Virus record (IMG/VR): IMGVR_UViG_3300020160_001962
Location: 1 to 23,640 of that record
Strand: one strand, 5' to 3'
Source: a virus
Length of the DNA stretch: 23,640 nt
In this document: positions 1 to 23,640 of the stretch, one piece after another
Layout of the letters: the number at the start of each line of letters is the position of its first letter
Position numbering within the stretch: the stretch's first letter is position 1
Made by a program: the position numbers and the translations under genes
Notes under the pieces: generated by a model
What the model saw: the letters and a program-made list of their open reading frames with translations, nothing else
Told to the model about the DNA's origin: nothing
Databases searched by the model: none

Positions 1-341
1 AAATCTTCCCAAGCAGGACCAAAACTTCCTAATTGTAATGCTTTAGAAACATCTTTCTTAAATATTTCTGGATCTACTGTATCTCTAAAGTTTCTAAATG
101 CAGTTGAATAATCTAATCCAACAATAGTATCACCTTTGTAGTCAAAGTCTTCTTTACCTAATTTAGAACGATATATGGCAAAATCAGCAGTACTCATACC
201 AACTTCACCACCATCTTTAGTTTGTACCATTATTTCAGTTGGCATGTTAAGTATATTATCATCCCAGTCAAATGCATAGTAAAGTAAGTATTTACCATCT
301 TCTGCACTTTCTGTAATGAAATTATTAAATTTTAATAGCAT
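1..341 (-). CDS. HAD-superfamily-like phage protein with capsid-targeting-like N-terminus (partial, C-terminus off window)
   Basis: Reading the minus strand from the ATG at 341-339 gives an open frame of 113 codons that runs off the window start. Around residues 21-34 it has a hydrophobic strand followed by AFDWDDNILNMPT, which fits HAD motif I (DxDx[TV]) with Asp25 and Asp27 as candidate nucleophile and acid, and Asn29 where Thr is usual. The remaining HAD motifs would lie beyond the edge. HAD enzymes are mostly phosphatases; no substrate can be named. The N-terminus MLLKFNNFITES resembles T4 capsid-targeting peptides and contains an [IL]-x-E site (Ile9-Glu11). It lies downstream of the acidic-protein gene, but a terminator and its own TAATATATA box at 363-371 separate them. 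The open frame is sure; the HAD call is moderate because only one motif is visible. Confidence 0.7.
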   Translation of the reverse strand, partial: MLLKFNNFITESAEDGKYLLYYAFDWDDNILNMPTEIMVQTKDGGEVGMSTADFAIYRSKLGKEDFDYKGDTIVGLDYSTAFRNFRDTVDPEIFKKDVSKALQLGSFGPAWED

Positions 342-832: not shown

Positions 833-1492
833 ATGTCAAAAGACTTTAACAAATACTTACTTAGTCAATCAATCACAAGTACTTCACAAGATGCTTATTT
901 TAAAAAACTTCAAAAATTAAATAGTACACCATTATTACTTGAAAGTAATGGAATGTCAGTAGATATATTTTCAAAACTATTAGAAGATAGAATTATATTC
1001 TTATCAACAGAAATAGATGATTATGTGTGTAATATCATAAAAGCACAATTAATGTATCTTGAAATGGAAAGTGATGATGATATAGAAATCTATATTGATT
1101 CACCAGGAGGTTCAGTTTATTCAGGACTAGGATTACTTGATGTAATGGACTATGTTAAACCTGATATTGTTACTATTAATACAGGATTGGCTGCATCAAT
1201 GGCAGCAGTTGTTCTTTGCTCAGGTACAAAAGGCAAAAGAAAATCACTTAAAAGAAGTAGAACTATGATTCATCAACCTTTAGGTTATGGTGGTTATGCT
1301 CAAGCATCTGATATGGAGATTGAGGCAAAAGAAATAAACTCTTTAAAGAAAGAACTTTATGAAATAATATCAGATAGAACAGGACAAACTTATGATAAAG
1401 TTTATACTGATAGTGATAGAGATTATTGGATGACTTCACAAGATGCTAAAAAATATGGAATGATTGATGAAATCATATTAAAAAGAAAATAA
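833..1492 (+). CDS. clpP: ClpP-like serine protease (family S14)
   Basis: A 219-residue ClpP-fold protease, about the length of cellular ClpP. The whole catalytic set is visible: DSPGGSV (89-95, oxyanion region), Ser122 in GLAASMAA, His147 in MIHQP, and Asp197 in the DRDYWM segment. The Ser-His spacing of 25 residues equals that of cellular ClpP. The first 50 residues (Ser/Thr/Leu-rich) are longer than a mature ClpP N-terminus and may be a propeptide or docking segment. Phage S14 enzymes may act in prohead maturation or modify host proteolysis; the sequence does not say which. No Clp ATPase is encoded in the window. It is the first gene of a three-gene unit (ClpP, unknown, methyltransferase). 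The box upstream is degenerate (TAATACTTA at 821-829), unlike the other unit-leading genes. Confidence 0.92.
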   Translation: MSKDFNKYLLSQSITSTSQDAYFKKLQKLNSTPLLLESNGMSVDIFSKLLEDRIIFLSTEIDDYVCNIIKAQLMYLEMESDDDIEIYIDSPGGSVYSGLGLLDVMDYVKPDIVTINTGLAASMAAVVLCSGTKGKRKSLKRSRTMIHQPLGYGGYAQASDMEIEAKEINSLKKELYEIISDRTGQTYDKVYTDSDRDYWMTSQDAKKYGMIDEIILKRK

Positions 1493-19317: not shown

Positions 19318-20694
19318 ATGGAGAAATATAGTGATAAGTTTTTAAATCAATCAGGTAAGTTAAAGAACAGCATTCTGGGGATGGAGTTTGAGTTTTATAT
19401 GAAAGACCTTTCTTTCTATAAAACTTTAGAACTTCTAAATCAACAACTTACACCTGTTAAAGTTTGGGGTTTTAGAGAATATCACTCAGACTTTACACCA
19501 GATGAAAGTAACTTCAAGATTGAACCTGACTTATCAGGAGGTTCAAATATGATTGAGTTAGTAACTGGGCCAATGGATTATTATGATGCAAAATTTTATT
19601 TAATTAAAATAATAAAATTCATACAAACTTATGGTTATACTAATGAAAAGTGTTCAATTCACTTTAACTTATCATTTAATGGTGATAAAAACTTGAATGA
19701 TTTGAATATATTAAAACTTATTTTAAATACTGATGAGGATGAAATCTATAGATATTATCCATCAAGAAAAGATAATGTTTATGCAAAAACAATTAAAAAG
19801 ATAATACCATTTAAAGAGTATGACTTTTTTAATATTCCAATTTCAGTTGTTAAGAATAATTTAAGACTTCCAAATGATAAATATTATGGTATAAACTTTT
19901 TAAATATTAATAATGATAAAGAAACACAAAGATTAGAGTTTAGATATATTGGTGGTAAAGACTTTGAAAAGAACTTAGGTCAATTAATCTACTTTATGGA
20001 AAGATTTATTATAAATACTTATGAATCAATTGATGCTTTATTTACATCAGAAGATACTGCAAAATTAGAAGAGTTCTTAGAAGATAACATTGGTAATTAT
20101 AAAAACTTATCTAAATATGATAACTTTATTGTTGACTTTCCAACTATTCAATTACAAATAAATCAAGATAATAACTATGATATTGTTTCTACTTACTATG
20201 AGAAGATATATAGTAGAATTTTCAATTTAATTGAATCTACACAAGACTTAAAAGAGTGTATAATAAACTATGTTATTGAAAAACAGACCATTGAAATTGT
20301 AGATGCTAATTTTAGAACATCTGCAACACTTAGAAATTATGATTTAATAAATTGTCAAGTTGAGGGAATCTTTGAAGATTGTTATTTTATTGGTTCTGAA
20401 ATTAAAAACTCACAGGTCTCTAAAAGTAAATTACAACATTCAGATGCAGATAATTCAAAAATACTTAATTGTAAAGTTGAGCAAAGTGAGTTAAGAAATT
20501 GTTACTTTATGAATGGTTATCTTAATGGTGATATGTATGGTGGTGTATTTCGTTCAGGAGACCTTGGACCTTATGCTACAATGGATTCAGAGGTTAAAGT
20601 GGTTAAAGATAATGATAACTTCTTTGATACTACATTTGACGAAGATGATAAAGGTGGTGATAAAGAAGCAGTAAAAGGTTATGGTAAAAAATAA
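19318..20694 (+). CDS. Amidoligase-like (COOH-NH2 ligase) protein with pentapeptide-like C-terminus
   Basis: A 458-residue protein. Residues 18-26 (SILGMEFEF) give the E-x-E of the first strand (Glu23, Glu25) of glutamine-synthetase-fold amidoligases. Residues 69-85 (EPDLSGGSNMIELVTGP) give the acidic motif and Glu80, CSIHFNLS (112-119) gives His115, and LEFRYIGGKDF (about 226-236) gives the late Arg. This order matches the Amidoligase_2 family, which joins carboxylates to amines using ATP. From about 335 to 400 there are short repeats of the kind DCYFIGSEIKNSQVSKSKL, like a pentapeptide-type beta helix. The tail is acidic, then basic. Phage members are predicted to modify peptides or cell-wall stems; no substrate can be given. 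Its stop shares one base with the next start, so coupling is likely. Confidence 0.75.
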   Translation: MEKYSDKFLNQSGKLKNSILGMEFEFYMKDLSFYKTLELLNQQLTPVKVWGFREYHSDFTPDESNFKIEPDLSGGSNMIELVTGPMDYYDAKFYLIKIIKFIQTYGYTNEKCSIHFNLSFNGDKNLNDLNILKLILNTDEDEIYRYYPSRKDNVYAKTIKKIIPFKEYDFFNIPISVVKNNLRLPNDKYYGINFLNINNDKETQRLEFRYIGGKDFEKNLGQLIYFMERFIINTYESIDALFTSEDTAKLEEFLEDNIGNYKNLSKYDNFIVDFPTIQLQINQDNNYDIVSTYYEKIYSRIFNLIESTQDLKECIINYVIEKQTIEIVDANFRTSATLRNYDLINCQVEGIFEDCYFIGSEIKNSQVSKSKLQHSDADNSKILNCKVEQSELRNCYFMNGYLNGDMYGGVFRSGDLGPYATMDSEVKVVKDNDNFFDTTFDEDDKGGDKEAVKGYGKK

Positions 20695-21548
20695 TGAAAT
20701 ATATTAAATTATTTTTAGAGTCAAAAAATTTAGGTAATCTATATCATATAGTTGATATTGAAAAGTTAAATTATATATTAGATAATAATAAGATAGTATC
20801 TTATAAAGCAGGTGATGGTAAAATATCATTAACTAGAAATAAAATGATGACAGGTTATCTTGGAGACAATTCTTCATCTGTATTTAAACTTGAAATTGAT
20901 GGTGATAAATTATCACACAAATATAGAATAAAACCTTATAGATATAAAACTATGAATGCGGGTTATTTAGATGAATATGAAGAACAAGTTCAGACAAATA
21001 AAATAACTAATATTTTTAACTATACAAATAAGATTATTGTAGATAAGAAAAGAGTATTGAATCTTATGTATATTTTTGATAAATTATCAGATTGGTTCAC
21101 ATCAGAAGGAACAAGACATGGTAATTTTCCAAATGTATTAAAGACAATAAAAGAAAAGACAAATCAAGTAGGACTTGAATTATATGTGCAGGATGGTTCT
21201 ATTATTAAAAAGGATGATAAATGGATTGATAGTATAATTAATTTTCCAATAAAAAATATAGAAAAAAGATATTTTATTGTTCTAAGAAAAAGAATTGAAA
21301 TTGGTAGACATAGGTACCAAGATAGTTTAGTTGATTTTGATAATAATATTATTATCAAAAATTTAGTTGTTGGATATAATATTGAGATAGATCCTGATAA
21401 AATAAAAGGTATAGAATTGAAATCATTTGAAGAATCCAAGAAATTTAAGTTTGATGAAGATGATGAAGATTCAAAGCATTACTTCTTAGATTTAAGAAAG
21501 TTAGATGATGGTAATTGGAAGATTGATAATATAAGACCAATAACATAA
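20694..21548 (+). CDS. ADP-ribosyltransferase-like protein with capsid-targeting-like N-terminus
   Basis: A 284-residue protein starting on the last base of the amidoligase stop (TAATG overlap). Residues 1-10 (MKYIKLFLES) match the N-terminal peptide shared by several genes here. The next 100 residues resemble the DarT/ART-like pattern: LYHIVDIEKLNYILDNNKI (16-34) with His18, SLTRNK (45-50), and a later EYEEQVQTNKI (94-104) where ART folds have a catalytic Glu. The remainder is charged and ends in an acidic stretch. ART enzymes attach ADP-ribose from NAD to protein or DNA. T4 Alt is an injected ART with a capsid-targeting peptide, so the combination is suggestive. The fold call is by eye and should be treated as a hypothesis; the open frame and operon position are firm. 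Confidence 0.55.
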   Translation: MKYIKLFLESKNLGNLYHIVDIEKLNYILDNNKIVSYKAGDGKISLTRNKMMTGYLGDNSSSVFKLEIDGDKLSHKYRIKPYRYKTMNAGYLDEYEEQVQTNKITNIFNYTNKIIVDKKRVLNLMYIFDKLSDWFTSEGTRHGNFPNVLKTIKEKTNQVGLELYVQDGSIIKKDDKWIDSIINFPIKNIEKRYFIVLRKRIEIGRHRYQDSLVDFDNNIIIKNLVVGYNIEIDPDKIKGIELKSFEESKKFKFDEDDEDSKHYFLDLRKLDDGNWKIDNIRPIT

Positions 21549-21566
21549 AAAAGCTATAAAATAATT

Positions 21567-21575
21567 TAATATATA
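21567..21575 (+). promoter_or_regulatory. TAATATATA box 4 nt before the DHH gene
   Basis: TAATATATA-GTAT-ATG at 21580, matching the arrangement at 9074 and 18457. Confidence 0.5.
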
Positions 21576-21579
21576 GTAT

Positions 21580-23211
21580 ATGAAAAAAATAGAAAAATTC
21601 AATAGCTTTAATTTAATTAAAGAAGAAGCATCACCAAGACTTCCAAAATCAGAAGAATACTGGCTAAAAAGAGGTAAAGAAGGTAAGAAAGTTGCACTAT
21701 ATACTCATGATGATATGGATGGTATATTTTCTGCAATTGAAGTTAAAAAATACTTAGTTAATGCTGGTTTTACTATTGTTAAGTATGGTATTTTAAATTA
21801 TTCAGAAGGTTGGAAATATACAACTTTGGATCCTAAATTAATCAATGTTGTATTAGACTTTGCAAATATGCCAGGTGATGAAAGAGATGAAATGGTTGAC
21901 TATTACTTGGATCACCATGGTATTTTTACACCAGAGGAATTGGAAAGATATAAATCTTCACCAGTACAGAAAAAGAAAACAGGTTCTGCATATGAAGCAA
22001 TCTGTCAATCTTTGGGAGTTCCACAAGACTCATTAACATTGGATGTTATTGATATGATTGACTCTGCTAAATATCAAGACTATAAAGTAGATTGGCAAAG
22101 ATTATTAGATTTTAATTTATCTGATATTAAAAAATCAGATAAAAAAAGATTAGAGTTTGGTGCTGCATTTAATCAATTTATAAAAAGATCTGACTCAAAA
22201 ACAATTATATCAGTTATAGAGAATTGTCCAGATGCATCTATTTATTCTATCTTTAATGTAATGAAAAAAGTTTACCCAGAACATAATGTTGTTGCAAGTG
22301 GATGGAAAAGAGGACAAAAGAAAGATTTCATTGAAGATTCTAAATGGAGATTAGGTGAAATGCAAAAAAGAACAAGAGGATTAAATACAAATAAAAAAAC
22401 ATTTACATCTCAAGCAGAATTTATACAGGAATTTAAAAGAGGTAATCTTATAAGAGTTGATGGTTATCAAAAAATTGGTGATTTAGTTTTTGTACCAACA
22501 GGAACTTGGGCAAATGCTTTAAGAGCAAGAACTATTGTTGAAAGAGACTTTATGGATGGTAAATTAGATTCTTTACCTAAATTCATACTATTACAATATG
22601 GTGGGACATTACAAGTATGTTCTTATAAGAAAATGGAAGAAATGGAAGGTGAGCTACCTGTATTGAAAAATGGTCAAGTAGTTAATGATTTAGGAAAGTA
22701 TATGACTGAATTATTAGGAAATTTTCAAAAACACTTAGGTTACTACTCACCAGATACAACTATTGGTCAAGATGAGATTACTGTATCAGGTGGACATGGT
22801 GGAATTGGTTCTATATCAAATGTATTTGGAGAATGTAAGGTTGAGCCTTATGTAGGACAAAGATATGTTGATATGTTTAAAAATAAAATTATAACAGACT
22901 TATCTGGAGTTGCTTTTAACTTAAATTTAAAATGGAGTGAACCTGTAGAATTTAATGCAAAAGAACCTGAAATGGATAATAAAGTTATTGGAATAGAAAA
23001 TGTTACTAAGTTAGATAAACAAGGTAATATTATACAACAAGAAAACTACGAATATAATCTAATAGATAATACTGGAAATACTAAAGTTGTAACAAAAGAA
23101 GATTTTGTTAAAGCAGGTTTAGATAAAGCAATGATACCTAATACAATGACTATTGATAATGAAAATATAAAAGTTATTGTAAAGTTTGAAAAATTCAACT
23201 ACAAAAAATAA
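21580..23211 (+). CDS. DHH-superfamily phosphoesterase with capsid-targeting-like N-terminus
   Basis: A 543-residue DHH-family enzyme (RecJ/NrnA group). Motif I is THDDMDGIFSA (42-52; Asp44, Asp46), motif II has Asp93 in VVLDF, motif III is DHH at 111-113, and a further acidic helix DVIDMIDSAKYQD follows near 155-167. A DHHA1-like SGGHGGIG segment near 403-410 would close the active site. All metal-binding residues look intact, so a manganese-dependent nuclease or oligonucleotidase is expected. The N-terminus MKKIEKFNSFNLIKEE fits the cargo peptide with an [IL]-x-E site (Ile13-Glu15), suggesting packaging into the virion. The C-terminal ~60 residues look like a separate small beta domain. It has its own box 4 nt upstream, and the next gene starts 8 nt after its stop. 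Confidence 0.87.
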   Translation: MKKIEKFNSFNLIKEEASPRLPKSEEYWLKRGKEGKKVALYTHDDMDGIFSAIEVKKYLVNAGFTIVKYGILNYSEGWKYTTLDPKLINVVLDFANMPGDERDEMVDYYLDHHGIFTPEELERYKSSPVQKKKTGSAYEAICQSLGVPQDSLTLDVIDMIDSAKYQDYKVDWQRLLDFNLSDIKKSDKKRLEFGAAFNQFIKRSDSKTIISVIENCPDASIYSIFNVMKKVYPEHNVVASGWKRGQKKDFIEDSKWRLGEMQKRTRGLNTNKKTFTSQAEFIQEFKRGNLIRVDGYQKIGDLVFVPTGTWANALRARTIVERDFMDGKLDSLPKFILLQYGGTLQVCSYKKMEEMEGELPVLKNGQVVNDLGKYMTELLGNFQKHLGYYSPDTTIGQDEITVSGGHGGIGSISNVFGECKVEPYVGQRYVDMFKNKIITDLSGVAFNLNLKWSEPVEFNAKEPEMDNKVIGIENVTKLDKQGNIIQQENYEYNLIDNTGNTKVVTKEDFVKAGLDKAMIPNTMTIDNENIKVIVKFEKFNYKK

Positions 23212-23219
23212 AAAATATT

Positions 23220-23640
23220 ATGAAATACTTAAAAATATACGAAAATTTTATGGATTCAAGGAATTCAGGAATTGCTGCTGACTTAGAAGCAGGTGAAATA
23301 GAAAATGACCAAATCTATTCTGATATGGATGATGATAACTTTGGTACAGAAGAATCTCAATTTGGTGCAGAAGAAATTTTAGCTAAATGGGAAGAAACAT
23401 TTGGTGATAAAACTCCAACTACACAAGAAAAATATGATTTTTATCATGATTTAAGACAAGAAGGATTTGATGGGATATTAATCTTTGATACACTTGGTGA
23501 TAAAATGAATAGAGAAGAAGATGAATATAGTTTTGATGATGATATTCATGAAAGTAATGAAGTATGTGATCCTTGTGGAGATGATGAAGAAGACAAGGAA
23601 AAAGAAGAGAACCAAGATGATGAAGAGCTTGATGAAGAAT
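23220..23640 (+). CDS. Acidic protein with capsid-targeting-like N-terminus (partial, C-terminus off window)
   Basis: The ATG at 23220 lies 8 nt after the DHH stop, and the frame stays open for 140 codons to the window edge. The first residues, MKYLKIYENFMDS, are very close to the MKYIKLFLES start of the ART-like protein and hold an [IL]-x-E site (Ile6-Glu8). The rest is strongly acidic (DMDDDN, EEDEYSFDDD, GDDEEDKEKEE). A CDPC pair (CDPCGDD) lies near residue 120. No family is recognised. It may be an internal capsid or prohead-core component, from composition and N-terminus only. Confidence 0.7.
   Translation, partial: MKYLKIYENFMDSRNSGIAADLEAGEIENDQIYSDMDDDNFGTEESQFGAEEILAKWEETFGDKTPTTQEKYDFYHDLRQEGFDGILIFDTLGDKMNREEDEYSFDDDIHESNEVCDPCGDDEEDKEKEENQDDEELDEE

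Follow-up and report, generated by a model that had tools for sequence, protein, structure and literature searches.

A candidate T4-type capsid-targeting peptide at the N-termini of many unrelated proteins in a clade of huge phages

The DNA analysed in this study (hereafter the window) is a stretch of 23,640 nucleotides, positions 1 to 23,640 of the IMG/VR virus record IMGVR_UViG_3300020160_001962, in which four proteins with unrelated bodies begin with a similar short peptide. This N-terminal peptide, called the tag below, is probably a capsid-targeting sequence (CTS) of the type used by phage T4, employed at a very large scale. Its consensus in related phages is M-I-K-K-Y-x-x-F-[IL]-N-E↓A/S (the arrow marks the cut site), and these genomes encode dozens to about 150 tagged proteins each, compared with a handful in T4. 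By analogy with T4, the phages of this clade probably ship a large protein cargo in their heads.

The window is a member of a clade of huge phages that includes LR745206 (634 kb), LR756501 (735 kb), LR756504 and LR756500, with genomes of about 460-735 kb and a GC content of 27-32%. The largest of these relatives belong to the Mahaphage clade, for which Bacteroidetes hosts have been predicted (Al-Shayeb et al. 2020; PMC7162821). The prohead protease of another relative, G005 (IMG/VR UViG_3300027969_000042), is 84% identical to that of LR745206, 80% to that of LR756502, 53% to that of LR756501, 51% to that of LR756504 and 32% to that of LR756500. Since the window record holds only 23.6 kb, with 21 open reading frames (ORFs) scored, the enrichment test was moved to related genomes, from which all genome-scale tag counts are taken. 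The portions sampled were 400 kb each of LR745206, LR756500 and Lak-A1 and approximately 340 kb of LR756504. ORFs were called by a simple longest-ORF caller, and some of the starts are wrong.

A preliminary description of the window had proposed collecting such N-termini genome-wide and testing for enrichment, and the outcome in the related genomes was strongly positive. A profile trained only on the N-termini of LR756501 (consensus MIKKYNQFINEA; scores of at least 5 counted) recognized 162 of the 973 ORFs of that genome as tagged, compared with about 11.4-12 in shuffles and with 4 of 697 internal methionines. In genomes that were not used for training, tags were found on 57 of 539 ORFs in LR745206 (6.8 shuffled), 32 of 513 in LR756500 (7.5 shuffled), 28 of 491 in LR756504 (6.8 shuffled), 25 of 178 in G005 (3.2 shuffled) and 25 of 150 in G004, the shuffles across the untrained genomes giving 2-8. 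With the same model phiKZ (3/210), crAss001 (1/98) and phage G (4/255) stayed near background. Tag counts vary with the score threshold, and the excess over background is the safer figure. The pattern originally suggested, MKx[IL]xx[FY], occurred 12 times in the 178 ORFs of G005, compared with 0.5 in shuffled and 3.9 in column-permuted N-termini and with none at 743 internal methionines. A short model was adopted because longer models, when iterated, slid towards a second motif, DPYGEE.

Motif-free scans gave the same picture. In a gapped-triplet scan K.F..F, I..F..F, F.NE and Y..F..E appeared near the top, with Y..F..E counted 25 times against 3.2 in one genome and 22 times against 0.95 in another, and in LR745206, LR756504 and LR756500 few 6-mers are as widely shared as those of the tag. 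It is most improbable that the peptide mirrors a translation-initiation preference or low-complexity, AT-rich gene starts. The low GC content of the genomes would suit such an origin, and positional composition alone does yield a few matches; however, in a column-permuted null for LR756501 that keeps the positional composition, 6.8 N-termini scored at least 7 compared with 133 observed, and the AT-rich phage G showed little or no excess. The fixed spacing, the A or S behind the E and the internal repeats of the scaffold described below would also be left unexplained.

The likeness to the T4 CTS put forward in the preliminary description holds residue by residue. According to a review of T4 head genetics, IPIII needs no more than its first ten residues, with targeting controlled by residues 4 and 7 and processing by residues 8 and 10 (PMC9026906). 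The huge-phage tag has four fixed columns, which correspond to IPIII Y4 and F7 (targeting) and I8 and E10 (processing), and the spacing of the motif-free K.F..F and Y..F..E is that of T4 Y4-F7-E10. As in the clade, the CTS of T4 IPI-IPIII and Alt (MKTYQEFIAE↓A in IPII and IPIII, cut by gp21) is N-terminal, about 10-16 residues long and carried by unrelated proteins. When the LR756501 model was applied to T4, IPIII ranked first and IPII second of 249 ORFs (identities checked), with an ORF starting MKTFKEFTST, which we take to be IPI, in fourth place. The core [FYW]xx[FYW][ILVM]xE occurs 16 times in the T4 proteome, three of the occurrences being the propeptides of IPII and IPIII and the cleavage site FGSFLTE↓A of gp23. 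Of the 63 LR756501 tags in which the site is clear, 57 have I, L or V at P3; N or K predominates at P2, and A or S is the commonest choice at P1'. In the rest of these tagged proteins, by contrast, an E is mostly followed by E, D or K. As a separate observation in T4 (AF158101, 112677-114440), an internal MLLEFKQFLYEA at residue 512 of a 587-residue ORF fits the tag core and may start a separate small protein.

Besides the Y-x-x-F-[IL]-x-E columns, T4 and the clade have in common an S77-type protease and a gp23-like capsid protein, the clade genes for which were found in relatives, outside the 23.6-kb window. PF03420 (S77, the gp21 family) matches a protein of 725-811 residues in the larger contigs with E values of 1e-4 to 1e-6, below the curated cut-off, and in tblastn this protein finds annotated gp21 proteases, those of cyanophages among others, with E values of roughly 1e-14 to 1e-15. 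Six homologues share H72, H85, S127, S128, D149 and D153 without exception, which fits a serine protease of S77 type. The gp23-like capsid gene lies directly downstream of the protease gene (PF07068, E 1e-22 to 1e-34). Behind the protease domain follow 10-14 tandem repeats of 14 residues, NIAYSEYIAENLDK, each of which resembles one tag (Y-S-E-Y-[IL]-A-E-N); they were counted with a pattern composed after the scaffold had been seen. Further IMG/VR protease loci carried 9-15 repeats in 80 of 80 cases. In T4, gp21 and gp22 are separate genes and gp22 lacks such a repeat array, whereas protease and scaffold are one protein in the clade. In the AlphaFold model the repeats form one long helix with hardly a break (279-453, moderate confidence); confidence was low for the protease domain, the identity of which therefore rests on sequence.

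The resemblance of repeat and tag was also recovered by an ungapped position-specific scoring matrix built from the LR756501 tags only and run on all internal windows. In every one of six genomes the best scaffold window came between 1st and 5th among all proteins, and in five of the six the scaffold had the largest number of matching windows. A HMMER multi-domain search for internal tag copies missed the scaffold repeats, probably owing to composition correction or to one-domain reporting. The end of the capsid propeptide is almost invariant, [SA]E[YM]AE[FY]HSINE↓N; its site is of the same kind as that of the tag with two extra residues, as in FNSFNLIKE↓E, the tag of the DHH protein in the window.

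In the mechanism proposed here, many soluble proteins that are otherwise unrelated would carry the tag as a short amphipathic helix at their N-terminus, and during prohead assembly this helix would dock in the internal core. The core would be built by the N-terminal S77-type prohead protease joined to a long helix in which 9-15 repeats of 14 residues stand in tandem, and to this core each cargo protein would present one scaffold-like unit. The active protease would then cut after [ILV]-x-E in the scaffold repeats, the major capsid propeptide and the tags, so that the core is broken down and the cargo released inside the head. Finally, the cargo would enter with the DNA and act early in the host; that of the window would comprise a DHH phosphodiesterase-like protein, a HAD-like protein, an acidic protein and one protein of unassigned fold. 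We infer the packaging and cleavage of the tagged proteins from these features and their delivery into the host from the T4 internal proteins and Alt.

Whether the cargo docks through the likeness of its tag to the scaffold repeat, the mechanism that we prefer, appears about evenly balanced. Docking is the less certain part, since tags and scaffold repeats could also have come to look alike through nothing more than a common cut site. In favour of docking, targeting and processing are genetically separable in T4, and the clade conserves the columns for both. An unlikely, though not negligible, alternative is that the peptide is only a recognition site of the prohead protease and that another part of each protein brings the cargo into the core. 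The motif does coincide with gp21 cut sites in the T4 internal proteins and gp23, and the clade capsid propeptide, which need not dock as cargo would, also ends in it. However, the targeting columns (4 and 7) are conserved along with the cutting columns (8 and 10; T4 roles in PMC9026906), the acidic protein of the window keeps the aromatic part of the tag without the usual cut residue, and a separate targeting element in each of the 110 protein families described below would be less economical. The CTS interpretation could extend to a general loading code, a possibility that we would place a little short of even, in which one copy of the scaffold repeat at the N-terminus of any protein leads to co-assembly with the protease-scaffold and then to excision, and at least roughly a tenth of the proteome enters the host together with the DNA.

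If the CTS interpretation is true, the tag would be a sequence-only marker of packaged proteins among the hundreds of unknowns in the largest phages, a question that otherwise requires virions of uncultured phages, and it would supply candidate early-acting proteins of host takeover and counter-defence. It would also suggest how a T4-type CTS could recognise the core, namely by resembling its repeat, and might offer a protein-delivery tag for Bacteroidetes phages.

The tagged proteins are diverse. Once their tags had been removed, 156 tagged proteins of LR756501 were sorted by blastp into 110 families, with different Pfam domains. Shared N-terminal ancestry through duplication of one gene family, which two large tagged families in LR756501 (24 and 17 members) might suggest, is hence scarcely credible. 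With shuffles, column permutation and family clustering as controls, chance, composition by position and shared ancestry were all rejected as sources of the peptide. The domains found include CoaE, PPK2, cytidylyltransferase/NMN adenylyltransferase-like, tRNA nucleotidyltransferase, DeoC, FMN reductase, GNAT, methyltransferases and radical SAM, and none of the 25 listed domains of tagged proteins is a head or tail family. Length-matched untagged controls include DNA polymerase, helicase, ligase, clamp loader and thymidylate synthase. Transmembrane-like segments are depleted in the tagged proteins (6/235 vs 192/1924, p=4e-5), and tagged genes cluster in LR756501, with 68 adjacent pairs compared with 26.8 by chance. 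A complete dephospho-CoA kinase of LR756501 begins directly behind MIITFESFIN, and the same domain can occur with the tag, as in MISKFSDMVNEN-ISSKFKLGID of LR745206, or without it, as in MNKSFKLGID of LR756504.

It is also improbable that the peptide directs proteins to some other phage-made assembly, such as a replication compartment, a membrane or the ribosome, rather than to the head. Many of the tagged enzymes (CoaE, PPK2, tRNA nucleotidyltransferase, methyltransferases) would indeed be expected in the infected cell. Nevertheless, outside the cargo the peptide is matched best by the prohead protease-scaffold, the cut-site signature is present, the T4 internal proteins match, and the polymerase, helicase, ligase and clamp-loader families are among the untagged controls.

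Several observations weigh against the CTS interpretation. Many of the tagged proteins (CoaE, PPK2 and tRNA nucleotidyltransferase among them) look metabolic and are not obvious injected effectors. Some orthologues are untagged; homologues lacking the peptide had been named in the preliminary description as a point against it, and they were found for some proteins. Orthologues with and without the tag are, however, expected of an optional add-on. Of the four window tags, two do not end in a textbook cut site, and the gene starts are those of our own ORF calling. LR756500 has very clean tags, yet its scaffold repeats are degenerate, and Lak-A1 has a homologous protease without repeats as well as other N-terminal peptides. 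The author of the LR756501 seed pattern already had the T4 peptide in view, so that recovery of the T4 internal proteins by this model was not fully blind; the two motif-free scans therefore carry independent weight. A literature search, outside which most subscription journals lay, found no experimental data on this clade and reports of a CTS for T4, P1 and SPN3US, with none for huge phages.

Other phages resemble the clade in part. In P1, an N-terminal signal loads the injected protein DarB into the head, but BLAST found no consensus among the Dar proteins, and P1 has been reported to lack a separate scaffold gene (PMC9024508). SPN3US and phiKZ are giant phages with many internal proteins, which a distant relative of the gp21 protease cleaves after x-E; several of the propeptides exceed 100 residues, and the sites are A/S/G-x-E (PMC5694885). 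In phiKZ there is no clear enrichment of the clade tag. In the cultured cyanophage P-SSM2 of Prochlorococcus (loci L129-L141 and L320), 6 of 292 ORFs are CTS-like at 7 bits or more, compared with 0.4; their starts include MKSFKQFLEEA and MKTYQQFNES, and one stands on a gene annotated as a cytidylyltransferase. P-SSM2 differs from the clade in having few tagged proteins, and scaffold repeats were not detected in it by pattern counting, but it offers a culturable test case for CTS-like starts.

The features of the window are listed in Table 1. The shared peptide had been described for four window proteins, and both the ORFs and the N-termini agree with that account; the clade model picked exactly these four of the 21 ORFs. 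They had been placed together at 20694-23640, where three of them do lie; the HAD-like ORF (3-341, minus strand) is outside this span. An [IL]xE site at the tag end had been attributed to three of the four and was found in two, ITE↓S in the HAD-like protein and IKE↓E in the DHH protein. In the acidic protein the sole [IL]xE (IYE) is inside the tag, which ends in FMDS, while FLE↓S stands at the tag end of the ORF at 20694 as had been noted. A clade-specific model trained on LR745206 alone, with the window held out, gave 12.1 bits to the HAD-like protein, 18.2 to the ORF at 20694, 15.3 to the DHH protein and 11.9 to the acidic protein; each of these scores was equalled by no more than 2e-4 of shuffled N-termini, and the remaining window ORFs all stayed below 5 bits. 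The LR756501 model gave 13.2, 1.2, 4.4 and 4.5 bits in the same order, so the tag call for the ORF at 20694 comes from the clade (LR745206) model only. The HAD-like tag has the expected residues in all targeting and processing columns, and the other three depart from them as given in the table.

Table 1. Tags and tagged-protein domains located in the 23,640-nucleotide window
Feature	Position	Strand	Remarks
Tag MLLKFNNFITE↓S of HAD-like protein	306..341	-	Exact FxxFIxE core; ORF 3-341 runs off the window
Tag MKYIKLFLE↓S of 284-residue protein (ORF 20694-21548), fold unassigned	20694..20723	+	Compact FLE form; clade model
Tag MKKIEKFNSFNLIKE↓E of DHH/DHHA1 protein (ORF 21580-23211)	21580..21627	+	Two extra residues before IKE
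Putative DHH/DHHA1-type domains of tagged protein	21688..23211	+	Pfam DHH; VIA-align
Tag MKYLKIYENFMDS of acidic protein (ORF 23220, runs off the window)	23220..23258	+	YxxFM core; usual cut position without E

Orthologues of the HAD-like protein retain the tag with different letters (MIKKFNQFLENN, MIKKYEDYSKNE), and the N-terminus of the acidic protein is identical in relatives L001 and L012. Twelve IMG/VR loci hold homologues of the DHH protein (54-93% identity), as does LR756501 (41%), and the tag pattern is preserved in them; a homologue search with the protein at 20694 found none. The C-termini of the DHH homologues (window ORF 21580-23211, plus strand) are also tag-like, reading KFEKFN or SFENFKS/NFESFTK.

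Weak but concordant evidence supports the placement of ORF 21580 in the DHH/DHHA1 phosphodiesterase superfamily, as previously labelled. Pfam DHH matches residues 37-141 with E=0.009, below the cut-off, and VIA-align gives Z 7-8 to NrN, RecJ-like and NrnA structures over a second domain at about residues 165-445. The HDD and DHH motifs are invariant in the alignment of the homologues; Foldseek with the model of this protein returned no match at E<=0.001. In that model tag residues 1-23 have a predicted local distance difference test (pLDDT) score below 50 and are outside the fold, apart from the DHH domain that begins at residue 37, which weakly suggests that the tag does not belong to the fold. 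Signalling nucleotides can be degraded by DHH enzymes, and NrN bound to SAM-AMP is among the nearest structures, so a counter-defence role of this protein is conceivable. For the HAD-like label the sequence motif FDWDDN was found and a Pfam match was absent. The ART-like label given to the ORF at 20694 gained no support, with no Pfam matches up to E=5 and no meaningful sequence matches in PDB.

The slot between ORF 19318-20694 (plus strand) and the DHH gene, which holds the MKYIKLFLES protein (20694-21548) in the window, varies among relatives (the same slot in L004-L008): it is empty in some and contains different tagged proteins in others, with starts such as MKYLRSLNES, MKYLKLYEDF and MKYLKKINEN. 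It resembles a cargo-exchange site. ORF 19318-20694 is conserved just upstream of tagged genes in most relatives, and its C-terminus is pentapeptide-repeat-like (PF13599, below cut-off). It was also observed that the LR756501 model gives 6.4 bits to the ClpP-like ORF 833-1492 (plus strand; PF00574, E=4e-66), in which an N-terminal extension, MSKDFNKYLLSQS (F-x-x-Y-L-x-S), is followed by LLLES and then by the ClpP domain.

Two further sets of repeated peptides were noted in the relatives. In the Prevotella phage Lak-A1 (MK250015; loci L172 and L214-L233, code 15) the clade tag was not found; NIKKLLESLFDDD heads 8 proteins and is internal in none, and a second N-terminal peptide, KALYESIMxxVSKxxxxxNE, heads 8 as well. 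These are possibly lineage-specific replacements of the same tag. In LR756501.1 (loci L043-L079) a second dispersed peptide, [LI]DPYGEE[DN]W, is present in 104 copies with 48 different codings in 89 proteins; its core DPYGE was not found in the sampled LR745206, LR756504, LR756500 and G005. It is often located near the C-terminus or directly behind the N-terminal tag, and it co-occurs with the tag in 47 of the 89 proteins compared with 155 of 884 (p=2e-12).

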